Of a stretch of 64,000 nt of DNA, positions 6,430 through 13,881 are shown piece by piece. Where the stretch lies: the NCBI RefSeq assembly GCF_001552215.1, contig NZ_BCQT01000005.1:124001-188000 (forward strand), written 5' to 3'. This stretch comes from Actinomadura macra NBRC 14102 (lineage in GTDB: Bacteria; Actinomycetota; Actinomycetes; Streptosporangiales; Streptosporangiaceae). Position 1 is the first letter of the stretch; each line of letters starts with the position of its first letter. The notes under the pieces are model-generated. The model was not told the DNA's origin and did no database searches. It worked only from the letters and a program-made list of their open reading frames with translations. Made by a program: the position numbers and the translations under genes.

Positions 6430-6780
6430 GGACGGCGCTTAGGGGTGCCTGGGAGGGGGTTGGAGGGCCTGGGAGGGGGCTGGGGAGTGTCAGGGAGAAG
6501 GCGAGGAGAGGTCGGGGAGAGGGTTAGGGAGCGCCCGCACTGGGTGTGGAGACGTTTGCGGGAGGACGTCGAGGCGTTTCCGGGAAACGTCGGGAGTGTC
6601 TGGGAGGGCCTTGAGAAGCACCCTGGAGGACCTTGGGAACGCCCGGGACGTTGTTTCGGGAGCACTCAGGGAGACGCTGAAGAATGCTCGGGAAGGGCTC
6701 CTGAGAAAACGACTGGAAACCGTGCTCTGGAGTGGCTGGAGCGCTCGGGGGAAGTGACGGGAGTGGCCAGGTATTGAGCG
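6430..6780. other. Strongly purine-skewed, G-rich intergenic stretch
   Basis: The gap 6399-7150 between the divergent TSUP and NLR genes has no convincing long gene. From about 6440 to 6780 the plus strand is dominated by GGGAG/GGGAAG blocks every 8-14 nt, giving an unusual purine-on-plus, pyrimidine-on-minus composition. Several GGG runs lie close enough for G-quadruplex formation. From 6780 to 7150 composition is more normal; a perfect 9-bp inverted repeat lies at 6950-6973. Confidence 0.6.
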
Positions 6781-7150
6781 TCATGAGAGTGGTCGGATCG
6801 GAGTGATGAAGTAGGCGTGAGGGACTGCGATGGTGCGTGCGCAAAGGAGCGCGTTTGGGAGGTGTGTGGATGGCGCCCGCAAGCACGTAAGGAGTCACAT
6901 GCGTGTTGCAGATGACCTTACCGGCCCGCATCGAGCTTCAACTTCTCGACCAGGACGACCGGGATCGTCCTGGACACACGTCACGTGAACCTCCTCCACC
7001 TCCGCCGCGGACCTGAGCGAAAGGCGTCTCGCCGCGTCACCTGCCACAGAGCGATACATTGGCCACTTAGGGTCAATGGCCCACCTGATCAGGTCCGGCT
7101 TGTAATTTCCTTGCTGAGAGCTCCGCTCTAGGGCCTGGCGGGAGGCCGGT

Positions 7151-9487
7151 ATGGCCGGTGACGGGGATAACCAGATCAGCGTTGGCGGCGCGTTCCAAGG
7201 TCAGCTCGTCGTAGGGGACAACAACGTCGTCGTCCACTCGGACGGGGTCACCGAGGTGGTGGTCCGGCATGAGTCCATGCCCGCGCCCCGGCCTCGCAGC
7301 CGCCCGGCCGGGACGCCGCTGCCGTTCGGCGAGCCCGATCTCCTCGGCCGCGACGACGACCTCGACCGCATCCGAGGGCTCCTCGACGAGCGGATGCCCG
7401 TCCAGGTGACGGGGCCGTCGGGCGTCGGCAGGTCCGCGCTGCTGCGTACCGTGGCCGCTCGACGCGAGGCCGCCGGCACGGACGTGGTGTTCCTGTCGGC
7501 CGCCGGTATGGACATGGACGACGTCCTCCAGGAACTCTTCCAAGCCTGCTACGACACCCGCGACTACCGGCCCGCCCAGCCCCAACTCCGGCGCCTGATG
7601 GGAACGATCAACGCGCTCGTCGTCGTCGACGACGCCGGTGGGGACGCCGCCGACCTCGCGAAGCTCCTGGATGCGCTGCCCGGCTGCGGACTCGTGGTCT
7701 CCACCGCGAACCGGGTGCCGTGGGACGGCGAGACGATCGCACTCGCCGGGTTACCAGAGGACCGCGCCGCCGAGTTGCTCGTGCGGGAGATCCGCAGGGA
7801 CTGCTCGGCGGACGAGCGACGGCTCGCCGAGCGTTTCGCCAGGTCGGTGGACGGGCATCCCGCCGCGCTCGTCCAGGCCGCGTCCGCCCTTCGGTCGGCC
7901 ACCGTCACCGACGTTCCCGCCGACCGGGAGATGCTGGCCGACGCGCTGGCCACGGGCCTCGGCGACACGGCGCGGGCCGTCCTGACCACCGTGCGCGCCG
8001 CCGAGGGCGTCGCGGTGCCGGCCCCGCTCGTGGCCGACCTGACCGAGGAACTCGGCGAGGACGACGCGGAGGATGTGCTCGGGCGCCTGGCCGACGCCGG
8101 TCTCGTCGTCCGGGAAGGCAGCGGGTACAGCCTGTGCGGGCCCCTCGCCCGCAGCGTCACACGCGACGACCCGCCGACGGAACCGGGGCGCCGCGCCGCG
8201 GTCCTCGCGGCCTGGGCACGGTCGGCGGGCGCGGACGAGGTCGCGGCCACCGGCACCCTTGTGGTCACGGTCCTGGAGACGGCCTACGAGGAGGGCCACT
8301 ACGCCGCTGCCCGAGACCTGGCCAAGGCCACGGCTCCGGCCTTGTGCCTGACTCTGCGGTGGGGGGCGTGGCGCCGCGTCCTCGCCCTGGGCCGCCAGGC
8401 ATCGCGCGCCTTACGCGCCGCGGACGACGAGGCGTACTTCGAGCAGCAGGAACACCTGCGCCGCAAGGCTCTCACCAAGGGCGCCCTCGTCGGTGCGGCG
8501 GTCGGGACGGCGCTGCTCACGGGCAAGCATCTGGCGGGTGCGAGCTCCGCCAAAGGAGGCGCGGCCACGGCCTCCAAGAGCCTGCTGGCGAAGCCGTCCG
8601 TCCTCGGAGCGTGCGCCACGGTGGTGGTCGGCGGCACGATCGCGGCGATGGGTCTCGGCTGGACGCCCGCGTCGTCCAACGGGGGTCTGACCAGCCCCAC
8701 GACCCGCGCCGGACTCCCGCAGACGTCGCTGTCATCGGCGCCGCACGACAACGGGAACGGAAACGGCGGCAACGGAAACGGCTCGAACGGGAAGAACGAG
8801 GAAGACAAGAGCCAGGGCCAGAGGCAGGGCAACGGCGGCAGGGGCGGATCCAACTGCGTCGCGGAGCAGCCCAAGCCCCACGACTTCGGCACGTTCAAAC
8901 CGCGCGACGACCGCTACAACCCCGAATGGCACTCCGTCTGGACGTTCCCGGTGTGCGACCGGCGGCTCGACGGGCCGAACTGGTCGATCAGGGGCGGTGA
9001 GGGGCACTTCCGCAAGGCCATCGACGACACCTGCGGCTTCGGGATCATCCTGCCGGGCTCCCGCTGCCTCCTCGGGCTGACATTCGACCCCGGACCGGTC
9101 GCCAACATGAAATACGAGGCGACCGTGGTCCTGCCCGGCCTGGGACTGTCGGGCGGCTCGGCCGCGCCCCAGGAGATCAAGCTGTTCGGCGCCACCGGCG
9201 ACGCCGACCCGGCGCCCGCCTCGCTCTCGGTCACGGTCACCGGTCCCGGCGAGGTCGAGATCAGCCGGAACGGCGGGACGCTCGGCCGCTGCTCACAGAA
9301 CTCGTGCACCAACCTCAGCGGGACGAAGCAGGGCGACCGGATCACCCTGACGCCCATCGGCACCGCGTCCAATCCGTCCACGGGGCAGCCGACGTGGCCG
9401 TCACCGTGCCCCGCGGGCGCTCCGGGCGACCGCCCCTGCGAGTTCGTCGTCACAGGCGATGTATCGATGACCGTGAAGGTCGACTGA
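7151..9487 (+). CDS. Membrane-anchored STAND/NB-ARC-type ATPase with N-terminal GDNN motif (NLR-like)
   Basis: A 778-residue protein. Residues 8-30 form a short motif [19 protein letters not shown], repeated at the start of the next gene product. A STAND NTPase module follows: Walker A GPSGVGRS (88-95, with Arg where Lys is usual), Walker B ALVVVDD (155-161), an STAN sensor-like segment (184-187), the NB-ARC-type GHPAAL motif (235-240) and a winged-helix/alpha-helical region to about 440. Two hydrophobic segments (about 445-462 and 484-503) are followed by an Asn/Gly linker and a Cys-containing beta-rich C-terminus with an Ig/repeat-like stretch ([19 protein letters not shown]), probably outside the cell. 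This fits a membrane NLR-type signalling ATPase, with the adjacent gene as partner. The domain calls are by eye; ligand and output are unknown. Confidence 0.75.
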
Positions 9488-9490
9488 GAA

Positions 9491-9522
9491 CAGCGTCGAC
9501 CGACATCAGCGTCGACCGACAT
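9491..9522 (+). repeat. Exact tandem duplication of 16 bp between NLR and cyclase genes
   Basis: CAGCGTCGACCGACAT occurs twice back to back (9491-9506 and 9507-9522) in the 52-nt gap between the NLR stop and the cyclase start, followed by the AGAGAGG ribosome-binding site. It lengthens the spacer of the two-gene operon. Confidence 0.9.
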
Positions 9523-9539
9523 CAGAGAGGTTGCGTGCC

Positions 9540-10259
9540 ATGACGCCCCGGAACCCCGGAATCCGGATCGGCGGCGACTTCGCCGGGCAACTCGTCGTCG
9601 GCGACCACAACCAAGTGATCAGCGGCTCGGACGGCGCCGCGCATGACCTGCGCGGCGAACCGCATCGTGCGACCTCGGGCCCGTCCGTCCACCACACGAT
9701 CGTCTGTGTGGATGTCGCGAAGTTCGGTGACGATCGCAGGACGACTCCGCACCAGGTCGCCGTCCGGGACGGCTTGTACCGCGCGCTCCACACCGCCTTC
9801 GACCGGTCCGGAGCGGACTGGGGAGACTGCTATCACGAGGACCGCGGAGACGGCGCCCTGGTGCTGGTGCCGTCCGAGGTTCCCAAGGCCCGGCTGTCCG
9901 CCGGGCTGCCACCCGCGCTCACCGCGGCATTGGACGAGCACAACCAGATCCACGCAGAGGAGTCGAGAATCCGGCTCCGCCTGGCCTTGCACGCGGGCGA
10001 GGTCCGGCACGACGCGCAGGGAGCGACCGGCAATGCGCTCACCCATGCCTTTCGCCTGCTGGACGCCCCCGCCATCAAGGAAGCACTCGACGCCTCCCCC
10101 CATGTCCTCGCGGTGATCGCCTCTGACTGGTTCTTCGAAGAAGTCATCCGCCATGACCCGGCAAGCTCCCCGGGCCTGTACGGGCGGGCGGAGATCACCG
10201 TCAAAGAGACCAGAGCACCCGCCTGGCTACGCCCCGTGAGCCCCGGGCCTCGAACGTGA
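9540..10259 (+). CDS. Class III nucleotide cyclase-homology domain protein sharing the NLR's N-terminal motif
   Basis: A 239-residue cytosolic protein. Residues 9-27 (RIGGDFAGQLVVGDHNQVI) closely match residues 10-28 of the upstream STAND ATPase. After a linker, residues 52-235 look like a class III adenylate/guanylate cyclase fold: CVDVAKFGD supplies the first metal-binding Asp (D58), HEDRGDGAL the second (D104), followed by RIRLRLALHAGEV. At the transition-state site the usual GDAVNVAARL-type sequence reads GNALTHAFRL, so Asn is replaced by Thr168 while Arg172 is kept. Catalysis is therefore possible but uncertain. I used the ATG at 9540, which has AGAGAGG 9 nt upstream, instead of an earlier TTG. 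Likely co-transcribed with the NLR. Confidence 0.75.
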   Translation: MTPRNPGIRIGGDFAGQLVVGDHNQVISGSDGAAHDLRGEPHRATSGPSVHHTIVCVDVAKFGDDRRTTPHQVAVRDGLYRALHTAFDRSGADWGDCYHEDRGDGALVLVPSEVPKARLSAGLPPALTAALDEHNQIHAEESRIRLRLALHAGEVRHDAQGATGNALTHAFRLLDAPAIKEALDASPHVLAVIASDWFFEEVIRHDPASSPGLYGRAEITVKETRAPAWLRPVSPGPRT

Positions 10260-10929
10260 CGCGCCTCCCTCCCGAAGAACCCTGTAGGGCAGTGGGGGCG
10301 GAGGCAGCCAGCTGTGCGGCCGAGGCCGGATGCGGGTGGTGGGTCGGTGGGGGCTCGTGCGGTGCGTGGTTCGCTGCCGACTTGCGGGGCTGTTCCGCCT
10401 GTCTGGCCGCCGCAACTGACCGCGGTTCGGGTAACCGTTCGACTACTGACTATTAGATGCCGTGGTCGGCGGGGTCCGCTGAGGCGATTGCGGAGCTCCT
10501 GGATTTTGACATTCCATGACAGTCCTCACGGGAGATACCGCCGATTCTCCTCGTTCTTCACCTGACTCCTGTTATGAGCTCTTGTAGAGGCTGTGCGGAA
10601 ATCGTGATCTCATAGAAGTTTTTTCCGGGATCGATGTGGTATCAGGTGACTAGTTTACGGCCCTGACCTGCCCAGACGGACGAGAGTCGACAACAGTACC
10701 CGCGGGTATCTGGTGTGCTCGGATGGGGTGAGTTAAAAAAGTTAAGGTTGAATGTGGATCGAAAAAGACGGCATTGACCCCCTTCACATGGCGGGATTAC
10801 CGTCACGGAGGAATTACCGGATGCGACGTGACCAGCCCCGAAGTCGCGATCGTCGATAGTTCGGAAATTCCGGCCGGGACGGCCAGCCGGGCCGTGCTGG
10901 ACTTCCGCCAATTGACATGGAAGACCCCG
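10260..10929. other. Long intergenic region, AT-richer than its surroundings
   Basis: No convincing gene. From about 10430 to 10790 the sequence is markedly less GC-rich than neighbouring genes, with TTTTTT and AAAAAA runs (near 10618 and 10735). It is upstream of the DUF4360 gene, so it probably contains that gene's promoter and leader. I could not assign a defined RNA or operator. Confidence 0.5.
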
Positions 10930-11571
10930 ATGATGAATGTGAAACACACGATGATCACGGCGGTGGGCGCCCTCGGCCTGTCCGTCATGATCGCCTCCCC
11001 CGCTCCCGCGGCTACCGCCGACGACGACACCGCGGCGCCCGACAACGCGACCGTCGAGGTCGCGACCGTCAACGGTTCCGGCTGTCCAGCCGGAACGGCC
11101 ACGGTGACGTCTTCCGAGGACAAGTCCTCTTTTACGGTGACCTACAGTGACTACCTTGTCTACGCGGGCGGCGACGCCTCGCCGACGAACTCCCGCAAGA
11201 ACTGCCAGCTGAGCCTCCAGGTCAAGAGCCCCGGCTACACCTACGCGGTCCGAGGACTCGACCACCGCGGCTTCGCCGGTCTGCAGCCCGACGCCGTCGG
11301 CGTGCAGAGGACGAACTACTACTTCCAGGGCAGCCAGGAGAGCCGGACCATCCAGCGGACCATCAAGGGCCGCTACTTCGGCGAGTGGCGGGTCAACGAG
11401 AGGCTCAACAAGGACGAGCTGCTCTACAAGCCCTGCGGCGAGGAGCGGAACCTCAACGTCAACACGGAACTGCGTGTGACTCCGGGCGACGACGAGTCCA
11501 AGGTCAGCTTCCTGGCGACGGACACGACGCGCGGCAGTGTCACGTACCACTTCGCGTGGAAGCGCTGCTGA
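10930..11571 (+). CDS. Secreted DUF4360 domain protein
   Basis: A 213-residue exported protein. The ATG at 10930 has GGAAG about 7 nt upstream and begins a clean signal peptide (VKHTMITAVGALGLSVMIAS, cleavage expected after ASPAPA). The mature part has the DUF4360 pattern: GSGCPAGTATV near the start, SRKNCQLSL, the central aromatic TYAVRGLDHRGFAGL, and a C-terminal pair of cysteines, suggesting two disulfides. DUF4360 proteins are small secreted beta-rich proteins of actinobacteria and fungi with no established function. It is convergent with pcrA, separated by a palindromic terminator. Confidence 0.85.
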   Translation: MMNVKHTMITAVGALGLSVMIASPAPAATADDDTAAPDNATVEVATVNGSGCPAGTATVTSSEDKSSFTVTYSDYLVYAGGDASPTNSRKNCQLSLQVKSPGYTYAVRGLDHRGFAGLQPDAVGVQRTNYYFQGSQESRTIQRTIKGRYFGEWRVNERLNKDELLYKPCGEERNLNVNTELRVTPGDDESKVSFLATDTTRGSVTYHFAWKRC

Positions 11572-11583
11572 CCTCAAGATCTC

Positions 11584-11611
11584 GGAACCCCCGGCCCGGG
11601 CCGGGGGTTCC
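11584..11611. terminator. Perfect 28-bp palindrome between convergent DUF4360 gene and pcrA
   Basis: A fully self-complementary segment beginning GGAACCCCCGG and ending CCGGGGGTTCC lies 12 nt after the DUF4360 stop and 8 nt after the pcrA stop. Position and strength fit a shared bidirectional terminator. Confidence 0.85.
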
Positions 11612-11619
11612 GTGCGTCG

Positions 11620-13881
11620 CTAGAGCTTTTCCACGGGGGCGTAGCGCAGGACGAGGCGCTTGACGCCGTACTCGCCGCCGAAGTCAACGCTGGCGGCGGC
11701 CTTGTCGCCGGCGCCGTCCACGGAGACGACGGTGCCCAGGCCGAACGAGTCGTGGGTGACCTTGTCGCCCGCGGACAGGGCGGGAACCTCACGGTTTCCC
11801 GGGGAGCGGACGCCGGGACGAGCCGCCATCCGGGACATCGCCGGGGACGAGGTGGACGAGGCCTCGCGCTCCCAGGCGATCAGGACCTTCGGGACCTCGC
11901 CGAGGAAGCGGGACGGCGGGTTGACCTGCGGTGCCCCCCAGGAACTGCGCATCGCCGCGCGGGAGAGGTAGAGGCGCTGGCGGGCGCGGGTGATGCCGAC
12001 GTAGGCGAGGCGGCGTTCCTCTTCCAGTTCCTTGGGATTGCTCATGGCGCGCAAATGGGGGAAGACGCCGTCCTCCATTCCGGTGAGGAAGACGACGGGG
12101 AACTCCAGGCCCTTGGCGGTGTGCAGGGTCATGAGGGTGACGACACCCTGGTCGGTCTCCTCAGGCTGCTCGCCCGGAGGGACAGGGCCGCCCTTGGCGC
12201 CGCCGGGAATGGAGTCGGCGTCGGCGACCAGGGCGACCTGTTCGAGGAAGTCGGGGAGGCGGCCCTCGGCGCTTTCGCCGTCGAGTCTCTCCTCGAACTC
12301 GCGGGCGACGGCTTCGAGCTCCTGCAGGTTCTCGATGCGGGTCTCGTCCTGCGGGTCCTTGGAGTTCTGGAGTTCGGCGAGATAGCCGCTCTTGGTGAGG
12401 ATCTGGTCGACCAGCTGGGCCGGGGTCGCGGACGCGGCGGCGGCGCGTAGTTCGTCCAGCAGGGCGACGAATTCGCGGACGGAATTGATCGAGCGGGTCG
12501 CCATGCCCGGGACGTCCTCGGGACGGCGGAGGGCCTGCCAGAACGAGATCCGCTCGCGGGAGGCGTGGGCCTCGACGCAGGCTTCGGCGCGGTCACCGAT
12601 GCCGCGCTTGGGGACGTTCAGGATGCGGCGCAGGGAGACGGTGTCCTCGGGGTTGGCGAGGACGCGCAGGTAGGCGAGGAGGTCGCGGATCTCCTTGCGC
12701 TCGTAGAAGCGGACGCCGCCGACGACCTTGTACGGCATGCCGACGCGGATGAACACTTCTTCGAAGACACGGGACTGGGCGTTGGTGCGGTAGAACACCG
12801 CGACGTCGCCGGGGCGGGCGTCGCCGGCGTCGGTGAGCTTGTCGACCTCGTGTGCGACGAATGCGGCCTCGTCGTGCTCGTTGTCGGCCACATAGCCGGT
12901 GATCTTGTGGCCTTCGCCCTGGTCGGACCAGAGTCTCTTGGGCTTGCGGTCGGCGTTGCGCTCGATGACCGCGTTGGCGGCGGAGAGGATCGTCTGCGTG
13001 GAGCGGTAGTTCTGCTCCAGCAGGATGGTGGTGGCCTCGGGGTAGTCGCGCTCGAACTCCAGGATGTTGCGGATCGTGGCGCCGCGGAACGCGTAGATCG
13101 ACTGGTCGGCGTCGCCGACCACGCAGAGTTCGGCCGCACCCACCTCGGTCACAGGGGCCGTCAGCTCGCGGACGAGTTCGTACTGCGCGTGGTTGGTGTC
13201 CTGGTATTCGTCCACGAGGACGTGGCGGAAACGGCGGCGGTAGTGCTCGGCGGCCTCCGGGAACACCTGGAGCAGGTTGACCGTCATCATGATCAGGTCA
13301 TCGAAGTCCATCGCGCCGGCCTGCTGGAGGCGCGCCTGGTACATCTCGTACGCCTCGGCGAGCGTCTGCTCCATGTGCGTGGAGGCGCGGTTCTTGAACG
13401 TCTCGTAGTCGATCAGCTCGTTCTTCAGGTTGGAGACCTGGGCGCTGAACGACTTCGGCGGGTACCGCTTGGGGTCGAGGTCCAGTTCGCGGCAGACGAG
13501 GGCCATGAGGCGGTTCGCGTCGGCCTGGTCGTAGATCGAGAAGCTCGTGGGGAAGCCCAGGCGCTTGGCCTCGCGGCGCAGGATGCGGACGCAGGCGGAG
13601 TGGAACGTCATCACCCACATGGCGCGCGAGCGCGGGCCGACGAGGGCGTCGACGCGCTCCTTCATCTCGGCCGCGGCCTTGTTGGTGAACGTGATCGCCA
13701 GGATCTGGCCGGGGTGCACGTCCCGTTCGCCGAGCAGATGGGCGATGCGGTGCGTGAGCACGCGGGTCTTGCCCGAACCGGCGCCCGCGACGATCAGCAG
13801 GGGGCCGCCGGAGTGCACGACGGCGGCACGCTGCTGCGGGTTGAGGCCATCGAGCAAGGGGTGAGCTTCGGTCTTCGACAT
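11620..13881 (-). CDS. pcrA: UvrD/PcrA-type ATP-dependent DNA helicase
   Basis: A 753-residue superfamily 1A 3'-5' helicase for replication-fork clearance and excision repair. Visible motifs: Q motif LNPQQRAAVVH, motif I AGAGSGKT, motif Ia ITFTNKAAAEMKER, motif II VDEYQDTN, motif III GDADQSIYAFRGA, motif IV EQNYRST, motif V VTLMTLHTAKGLEFPVVF, motif VI YVGITRARQRL. The C-terminus ends in the basic Tudor-like segment typical of PcrA. The ATG at 13881 is preceded in frame by GTG at 13884. It is upstream of sucCD on the same strand, as in other actinobacteria, but separated by accessory genes. Confidence 0.97.
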   Translation of the reverse strand: MSKTEAHPLLDGLNPQQRAAVVHSGGPLLIVAGAGSGKTRVLTHRIAHLLGERDVHPGQILAITFTNKAAAEMKERVDALVGPRSRAMWVMTFHSACVRILRREAKRLGFPTSFSIYDQADANRLMALVCRELDLDPKRYPPKSFSAQVSNLKNELIDYETFKNRASTHMEQTLAEAYEMYQARLQQAGAMDFDDLIMMTVNLLQVFPEAAEHYRRRFRHVLVDEYQDTNHAQYELVRELTAPVTEVGAAELCVVGDADQSIYAFRGATIRNILEFERDYPEATTILLEQNYRSTQTILSAANAVIERNADRKPKRLWSDQGEGHKITGYVADNEHDEAAFVAHEVDKLTDAGDARPGDVAVFYRTNAQSRVFEEVFIRVGMPYKVVGGVRFYERKEIRDLLAYLRVLANPEDTVSLRRILNVPKRGIGDRAEACVEAHASRERISFWQALRRPEDVPGMATRSINSVREFVALLDELRAAAASATPAQLVDQILTKSGYLAELQNSKDPQDETRIENLQELEAVAREFEERLDGESAEGRLPDFLEQVALVADADSIPGGAKGGPVPPGEQPEETDQGVVTLMTLHTAKGLEFPVVFLTGMEDGVFPHLRAMSNPKELEEERRLAYVGITRARQRLYLSRAAMRSSWGAPQVNPPSRFLGEVPKVLIAWEREASSTSSPAMSRMAARPGVRSPGNREVPALSAGDKVTHDSFGLGTVVSVDGAGDKAAASVDFGGEYGVKRLVLRYAPVEKL

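Follow-up and report, generated by a model that had tools for sequence, protein, structure and literature searches.

Signalling through short amyloid motifs in bacteria was reportedly surveyed by Dyrka et al. in 2020, whose bacterial amyloid signalling sequence classes (BASS1-10) and NLR-Bell gene pairs are cited here through later papers. In the excerpts of the literature used here, BASS motifs occur at the N-termini of NLR-type receptors and at the C-termini of Bell effectors, the BASS3 class is akin to the RHIM and PP motifs, and TIR and CHAT domains are rarer effectors (PMC7889193, PMC8086366, PMC12261475, PMC7885112, PMC9815663). The present study concerns a two-gene locus at 7151..10259 of a 64,000-nucleotide stretch of the Actinomadura macra NBRC 14102 genome (contig NZ_BCQT01000005.1, positions 124,001 to 188,000; hereafter the window), in which a STAND ATPase receptor and a protein with a predicted class III nucleotide-cyclase fold share an N-terminal motif. 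On balance we favour, with some reserve, a membrane-anchored STAND and cyclase-fold pair in which the activated receptor nucleates prion-like co-assembly through this 23-residue motif, bringing the cyclase domains together and switching them on.

The locus resembles BASS systems, as they appear in these excerpts, in having adjacent NLR and effector genes with a common motif of 20-40 residues that is N-terminal in the NLR; such systems are found mainly in filamentous actinobacteria and cyanobacteria, and non-Bell effectors (TIR, CHAT) are known. It differs from them in that the effector is a cyclase, the receptor has a predicted transmembrane (TM) helix and a probable ectodomain, the core lacks a Gln at its second position, and many effector types stand behind one motif. 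A Frankia BASS3 peptide (VQVGDGNVQIN) and a Methanothrix peptide (GQKVIGQQINV) are reported to aggregate in vitro (PMC8086366, section 13). The Frankia peptide, VDLRDAKGVQVGDGNVQINRF, aligns without gaps with the present motif on VGDxNV, a weak similarity to one peptide in which 158 and 470 of 20,000 shuffles score equally well; for the Methanothrix BASS3-like peptide, the counts were 122 and 38 of 20,000. Both peptides thus resemble the present core slightly more than shuffled versions of themselves do, and two sigma-type peptides do so to a lesser degree. The RHIM core is [IV]-Q-[IVL]-G, and the present L-V-V-G core departs from the RHIM/PP type in the spacing of Gln and Gly, the Gln preceding the Gly by four residues instead of two. 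The initial annotation of this DNA had invoked a Q-x-V-G-x-x-N core, which needs correction: the window has Q-L-V-V-G-D-x-N, with one extra residue between Q and G. We file the pair as working like a BASS signalosome, without placing it as a member of BASS1-10.

The fungal NLR signalosomes described include NWD2/HET-S, PNT1/HELLP (with the PP motif) and PUASM with PNP_UDP (PMC7889193, PMC9815663), and the PP core is given as NxGxQxGxN (PMC9815663). There, in the passages covered, the N-terminal motif of the receptor templates the effector, and a PNP_UDP effector also occurs in one of our loci (L030). Unlike in the present cyclase, the motif of the fungal effectors is C-terminal, and effectors of the HET-S type act on membranes; the word "cyclase" is absent from PMC9815663. 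Effector-associated domains (EADs) are small non-catalytic modules common to a core protein and an adjacent effector, and cNMP cyclases are among the enzymes that they recruit, according to the portions used of Kaur et al. 2020 and 2021 (PMC7159879, PMC8195603). EADs in those portions are folded, mostly alpha-helical and mainly found in MoxR-vWA and GTPase systems, whereas here a short, unfolded-looking, beta-type motif sits on a STAND receptor.

The second protein shares with class III cyclases such as Ma1120, CyaC, Cya2 and soluble guanylyl cyclase the predicted fold, the metal Asp pair, the Arg and the Lys, but has a Thr for Asn in the window and a flexible N-terminal motif in place of a classical input domain. 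In Pycsar, a class III-like cyclase generating a phage-defence signal is combined with a cyclic-pyrimidine effector. Unlike Pycsar, the present locus has no candidate cyclic-nucleotide effector in the neighbouring genes examined, and its partner receptor would act upstream. Neither the sharing of a module with exchange of the effector nor the notion of amyloid coupling is new. In search listings of open-access papers, we found no class III cyclase partnered with an amyloid-type motif, no membrane-spanning NLR-amyloid receptor and no two such cyclase lines per genome.

A specific motif is shared by receptor and cyclase

An open reading frame (ORF) and alignment check located both ORFs and the N-terminal motif where the initial annotation had placed them. 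The same annotation regarded the proteins as otherwise unrelated, and BLASTP of the cyclase against the receptor agreed, giving a meaningful E-value for the motif segment only (2e-5; next best 0.13). The cyclase motif, IRIGGDFAGQLVVGDHNQVISGS, is identical to the receptor motif at 13 of 23 amino acids and at 42 of 69 nucleotides, with the same codon at eight of the 13 shared residues. A recent duplication of the motif DNA between the two genes was disfavoured because of this nucleotide identity and the different codons at the other five shared residues. In both proteins the segment spans about 20 residues, is Gly- and Asn-rich with aliphatic runs, and has low confidence in the AlphaFold2 (AF2) models.

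A position-specific scoring matrix (PSSM) was made from 21 receptor relatives, without the window's receptor. With this matrix, the cyclase motif scored 46.6 bits, and the best of 40,109 shuffled windows reached 1.2. An exact degenerate DNA pattern, strict enough that motif variants escape it, had eight matches in 65 genus genomes, all of them in the receptor family or a neighbouring gene: two in the window's genome (receptor and cyclase, the sole matches there), two in G073 (receptor and cyclase), three in receptors, one per genome (G094, G097, G098), and one in a G100 partner gene. In the same genomes there were zero matches to the reversed pattern, used as a control. By this exact pattern, and within this genus, the motif is not generic; its occurrence mainly in unpaired proteins was what the initial annotation had said would undo the pairing. 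It is N-terminal in 22 of the 24 close receptor homologs (P0121-P0144); the exceptions, P0134 and P0135, are annotated with later starts, and at the P0135 locus (L030) the motif is visible in the DNA. Across the loci of 13 cyclase paralogues in the same genome, no motif above 6 bits was found with the receptor-side PSSM, and a loose regular expression returned two unrelated matches only (L013, L020). When a partner-side PSSM was applied to the controls, one match of 15.1 bits was obtained among 244,246 windows, followed by one of 9.1.

The receptor family has exchangeable partners

The genome scan with the receptor alignment yielded 27 loci, and the receptor was present in 14 of the 65 genus genomes, with the motif in 11. 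Once duplicates were removed (L083 = L042, L086 = L044), there were 39 distinct loci. L088-L090, which have a different architecture and no N-terminal motif, were set aside. In six loci the receptor gene is cut by the end of a contig; split receptors were rejoined via another contig for L044 = L086 (G096) and L092 (G097), with partners L079 and L081, and the cut receptors of L033, L034, L050 and L053 were left out, which gave 32 assessable loci. A neighbouring motif-bearing ORF above 6 bits by the receptor-side PSSM was found in 24 of the 32, and none of 13 control loci exceeded this value. The weakest counted neighbour (L051) scored 10.5 bits, and stray matches elsewhere in the scanned loci had 6.3-10.4 bits. 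Three more loci had a weaker neighbour motif, identified from the partner-side PSSM together with its position and a helical domain that recurs; their scores (7.2 for L085 and L087, 13.0 for L095) are all under the best control. These counts bear out the proposed receptor-effector pair joined by a common motif. The initial annotation would have dropped the idea if homologues of the two genes never co-occurred; motif-bearing partners do accompany the receptor (24 of 32, plus the three weak cases), but in just four loci (the window, L082, L093 and L094) is that partner a cyclase. Apart from these pairs, L089 contains at about 6134 a vestigial-looking 13.0-bit motif, GNVHGRVMVGDHEVEI, beside the ATPase domain of a STAND protein of different build.

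The other partners are diverse. A nucleoside phosphorylase (PNP_UDP_1, 3.8e-28) is the partner in L030 and a TIR_2 protein (5.5e-14) in L055; in both, as in L037 and L049, the motif is at the C-terminus, whereas it is N-terminal in the window cyclase. Small helical domains, labelled A-C in this analysis, occur in seven (A), seven (B, including the three weak cases) and two (C) loci, and had no Pfam family above threshold where tested. Domain A (L031, L032, L035, L039, L042, L045, L047) shows the conserved pattern LDELEEAI..PDLATMEhVr.WF.RkmP.LA behind the motif and is a possible Bell-like executor. Five loci encode very short partner proteins (L029 8079, L046 8469, L048 8572, L051 7918, L054 8607) with the motif near the N-terminus. 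In four of the five, another motif of the beta type (TNTAsdn..VYtVmNGdmHIH) lies towards the C-terminus; the L029 protein has a different end, TISGDVHFHQ. These proteins are possibly adaptors to another protein. Partner genes lie downstream, upstream, divergently or convergently. Because both partner type and gene order vary, the motif, not the effector, is the constant element of the family.

Receptor and partner motifs covary

In 22 pairs, the mean BLOSUM score of a receptor motif with that of its own partner was 44.7, compared with 35.5 for shuffled pairs and 39.3 when shuffling was restricted to the same effector class (0 of 20,000 in each case). Identity behaved likewise, at 8.7 for own partners versus 7.0 shuffled (0/20,000) and 7.6 within class (1/20,000). 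The test was run without L085 and L087 (gapped motif), L095 (weak) and L079 and L081 (later finds), and the receptor motifs of L046 and L084 were gapped by hand. The outcome was the same for 18 less redundant pairs, with L082, L054, L049 and L032 dropped.

A further cyclase-STAND pair in the window's genome

The terminal extensions of the 13 cyclase paralogues were compared with their neighbours, and L021 alone gave a convincing match (4e-9); the others were weak and of low complexity. At L021 (G000:C4, about 536550-539600), the cyclase paralogue has the C-terminus ISGITISGDGQNAIGNTVGGDFHQGR, and the adjacent gene encodes a STAND-like ATPase, with weak domain matches only, whose N-terminus is MTEFDDVTVTGDGQNAIGNTVSGD. 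Their shared motif, GDGQNA[IF]GNTV, is unlike that of the first pair. This second STAND family was found in 33 of the 65 genus genomes. In all 20 of the 20 best loci, own genome included, a cyclase lies directly upstream with the motif at its C-terminus, and all 20 cyclases retain both metal Asp residues, the Arg and the Lys. The motifs of the second pair also covary (59.8 own versus 53.5 shuffled, 0/20,000). At the position preceding Gly-Asn, 19/19 scripted pairs have either Phe in both proteins or Ile/Val in both, and L105, read by eye, has Phe in both; the best tree has six changes of this trait on either side. Two further cyclase-domain paralogues of this genome, L010 6548-8239 (-) and L017 5248-6930 (-), are fused to cyclic-nucleotide-binding domains, and one of the two also has a Crp helix-turn-helix.

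Domain architecture of the receptor and the cyclase

The receptor matched AAA_16 (9e-6) and ATPase_2 (2e-5) in Pfam, both under the gathering score, and nSTAND was also sub-threshold. Its AF2 model has a mean predicted local distance difference test (pLDDT) value of 70 and is good at about residues 60-440; the best Foldseek match was Apaf-1 (3sfz, 1.3e-11), followed by plant NLRs and a solved STAND protein (6mfv, 2e-10). Profiles and Foldseek agree on an NB-ARC/NACHT-like ATPase with a helical extension. No Pfam repeat family at E up to 1 was found for C-terminal sensor repeats (WD40, TPR, LRR). Because a predicted TM helix and a beta-rich region are present instead of such repeats, we name the receptor STAND, NLR-type. 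At least one hydrophobic segment (Kyte-Doolittle 1.5 or more) follows the ATPase region in 23/23 full-length family members, counted over P0121-P0144 with the truncated P0143 out and the distant P0145 and P0146 not included. After the TM helix come a low-complexity linker and then a Cys-rich, beta-rich region; the relative P0126 has two PASTA stretches in its C-terminal region (3e-19). The receptor is predicted to be a single-pass membrane protein with the motif and ATPase inside and the sensor outside.

For the product of 9540..10259, predicted structure and profiles agree on a class III cyclase fold, as the initial annotation had proposed. The AF2 block across residues 51-230 has a pLDDT of 92-98. 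D58, D104, R172 and K222 are each kept in 38/38 aligned cyclase sequences; we take D58 and D104 to be the metal Asp residues, R172 the transition-state Arg and K222 the phosphate-binding Lys. Glu100 and Gly161 of the window cyclase suggest, from sequence, a guanylyl-type preference. The close relative L082, a sister pair, retains the Walker-A Lys and the catalytic Asn. Among metagenomic cyclase relatives, P0007 and P0022 have different glycine-rich N-terminal motifs, perhaps marking further coupling types.

Features of the locus

The features are collected in Table 1. The cyclase ORF can be read as 9531-10259 from a TTG at 9531, which would number the motif as residues 11-33; the ATG at 9540 is the likelier start and is that of database entry P0001. 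Neither reading frame is interrupted. The tandem repeat (GTCGACCGACAACAGC) extends from the last nucleotides of the receptor gene into the intergenic DNA. Downstream, at window 10774-11571, lies a gene for a DUF4360 protein (Pfam 6e-53), which is probably secreted and not evidently in the system. An Rfam scan of 6500-11700 found nothing reaching the gathering score, and PADLOC defence models had no match at E up to 1 to the receptor, the cyclase or the DUF4360 protein.

Table 1. Coordinates of the receptor-cyclase locus in the window
Feature	Position	Strand	Basis
STAND/NLR-type ATPase receptor, 778 aa	7151..9487	+	Sub-threshold Pfam and Foldseek of AF2 model
Receptor copy of shared motif, residues 9-31	7175..7243	+	PSSM, pairwise alignment
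Receptor ATPase and helical region, residues 64-440	7340..8470	+	Pfam, AF2, Foldseek
Receptor Walker A GPSGVGRS, Arg at usual Lys position	7412-7435	+	Alignment with relatives
Predicted TM helix of receptor, residues 484-502	8600..8656	+	Kyte-Doolittle mean 1.97
Predicted extracytoplasmic beta-rich, Cys-rich region of receptor, residues 570-778	8858..9484	+	Inferred topology; PASTA in one relative
16-bp tandem repeat, 2.9 copies, at gene junction	9479..9525	+	
Class III nucleotide-cyclase-fold protein (predicted), 239 aa	9540..10259	+	Predicted structure, profiles
Cyclase copy of shared motif, residues 8-30	9561..9629	+	PSSM, alignment; low AF2 confidence
Cyclase domain, residues 50-235; D58, D104, R172, K222	9687..10244	+	Alignment; AF2

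Discussion

The predicted membrane-receptor architecture, the swapping of effectors and the second pair in the same genome go beyond the initial annotation. In the mechanism that we favour, the C-terminal region of the receptor would sense something outside the cell or in the envelope, a suggestion drawn from four features: a predicted TM helix, a linker of low complexity, the region rich in Cys and beta structure, and the PASTA stretches of one relative. The STAND ATPase would then oligomerise on ATP, as is established for the Apaf-1/NLR ATPases. The N-terminal motifs clustered in this way could fold into beta-arches and impose this fold on the flexible N-terminus of the cyclase by templating; the motif covariation supports specificity within pairs. 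Because class III cyclases act as dimers with active sites at the interface, packing them along the assembly would dimerise and activate the enzyme. The cyclic nucleotide may act via proteins encoded elsewhere, as the two own-genome paralogues fused to cyclic-nucleotide-binding domains suggest. In relatives, the same motif would bring in TIR, nucleoside phosphorylase, small helical domains or adaptors. A broader proposal is that in actinobacteria an envelope-sensing, membrane-spanning STAND switches a class III cyclase by prion-like templating, that at least two such lines per genome are kept apart by co-evolving motifs, and that the motif is a plug for exchanging cyclase, TIR, phosphorylase and helical effectors; we put this forward tentatively, as somewhat short of probable.

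Several observations weigh against this interpretation. By BLOSUM just 5 of the 22 receptor motifs, and by identity 8 of 22, have their sole best match in their own partner, so that pair specificity holds on average and not per pair, and shared ancestry may contribute partly to the covariation. In the tree of the second pair there are only three supported independent contrasts, all concordant (p 0.25, underpowered). Five of the 32 assessable loci have no detectable motif-bearing neighbour (L036, L038, L040, L041, L052); L040 and L041 are nearly identical, and the receptor frame of L052 is interrupted. The motif of the cyclase is N-terminal, whereas BASS effectors in the published excerpts carry it C-terminally. 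The topology of the receptor is deduced from hydropathy and domain clues, and if both segments crossed the membrane in the 14/23 full-length members that have two, the window's receptor not among them, the C-terminal region would be inside. The window's receptor has Arg in its Walker A where most relatives have Lys, a change also seen in P0132, and the window cyclase has Thr168 at the transition-state Asn position, which is Asn in 29/38 aligned sequences; because of these two substitutions, the window copy may be impaired. Finally, the guanylyl preference is not general, because the partner cyclases of L093 and L094 lack Glu100 (His and Asp, respectively) and Gly at 161 occurs in just 2/20 second-pair cyclases.

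Other explanations were weighed on the same evidence. A chance or generic N-terminal segment would fit a motif that is short and of low complexity, but the 46.6 bits against a null maximum of 1.2, the confinement of the exact pattern to the receptor family and the pair covariation make this exceedingly improbable. The motif might instead be an ordered, non-amyloid homotypic docking segment, for example a beta-hairpin or a beta-solenoid stack, forming a stoichiometric complex with no templating. Adjacency and pairwise covariation would then appear identical, the similarity to the one BASS3 peptide is weak, and homotypic pairing of EADs, with cNMP cyclases among the enzymes that can be recruited, is described for bacterial conflict systems in the excerpts used (PMC7159879, PMC8195603). 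On the other side, the length, composition and low model confidence of the segment, and its position at the N- or C-termini of unrelated effectors, are as in amyloid signalosomes, and aggregation is reported for an archaeal NLR-side peptide whose G-Q-x-V-I-G spacing is the same (PMC8086366, section 13). We judge such docking unlikely, and co-assembly by templating remains the reading that we prefer.

A catalytically dead window cyclase, serving as a nucleotide-binding or scaffold subunit, or decay of the entire locus would explain Thr168 and the Walker-A Arg, and in related conflict systems several of the cNMP cyclase domains that are joined to the vWA component are described as catalytically inactive (PMC7159879). 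The invariance of the metal Asp pair, Arg and Lys in the 38 aligned sequences, the two intact frames and the Lys and Asn of the sister pair L082 argue against this, and we consider a dead or decaying locus quite improbable. The pair could also be non-immune and raise a cyclic nucleotide as a sensor of envelope stress or in development. The predicted TM helix and ectodomain, the PASTA stretches in P0126 and the absence of a match to the PADLOC defence models would suit such a role, whereas TIR and PNP_UDP_1, both known effectors of NLR-linked immunity and cell death, stand among the effectors behind the same motif, and the receptor has a patchy spread over the genus, of the kind usual for conflict systems. 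A non-immune sensor is a possibility to be taken seriously, if a doubtful one.

NLR-linked amyloid signalling is described for fungi; in bacteria it has been proposed chiefly for Bell effectors that are thought to act on membranes. If the templated coupling of a STAND receptor to a cyclase is true, an amyloid can control how a diffusible second messenger is made, and with a receptor that spans the membrane such systems would be able to look outward. The two covarying cyclase-pair motifs in one genome are a natural experiment on the specificity of prion-like signals.

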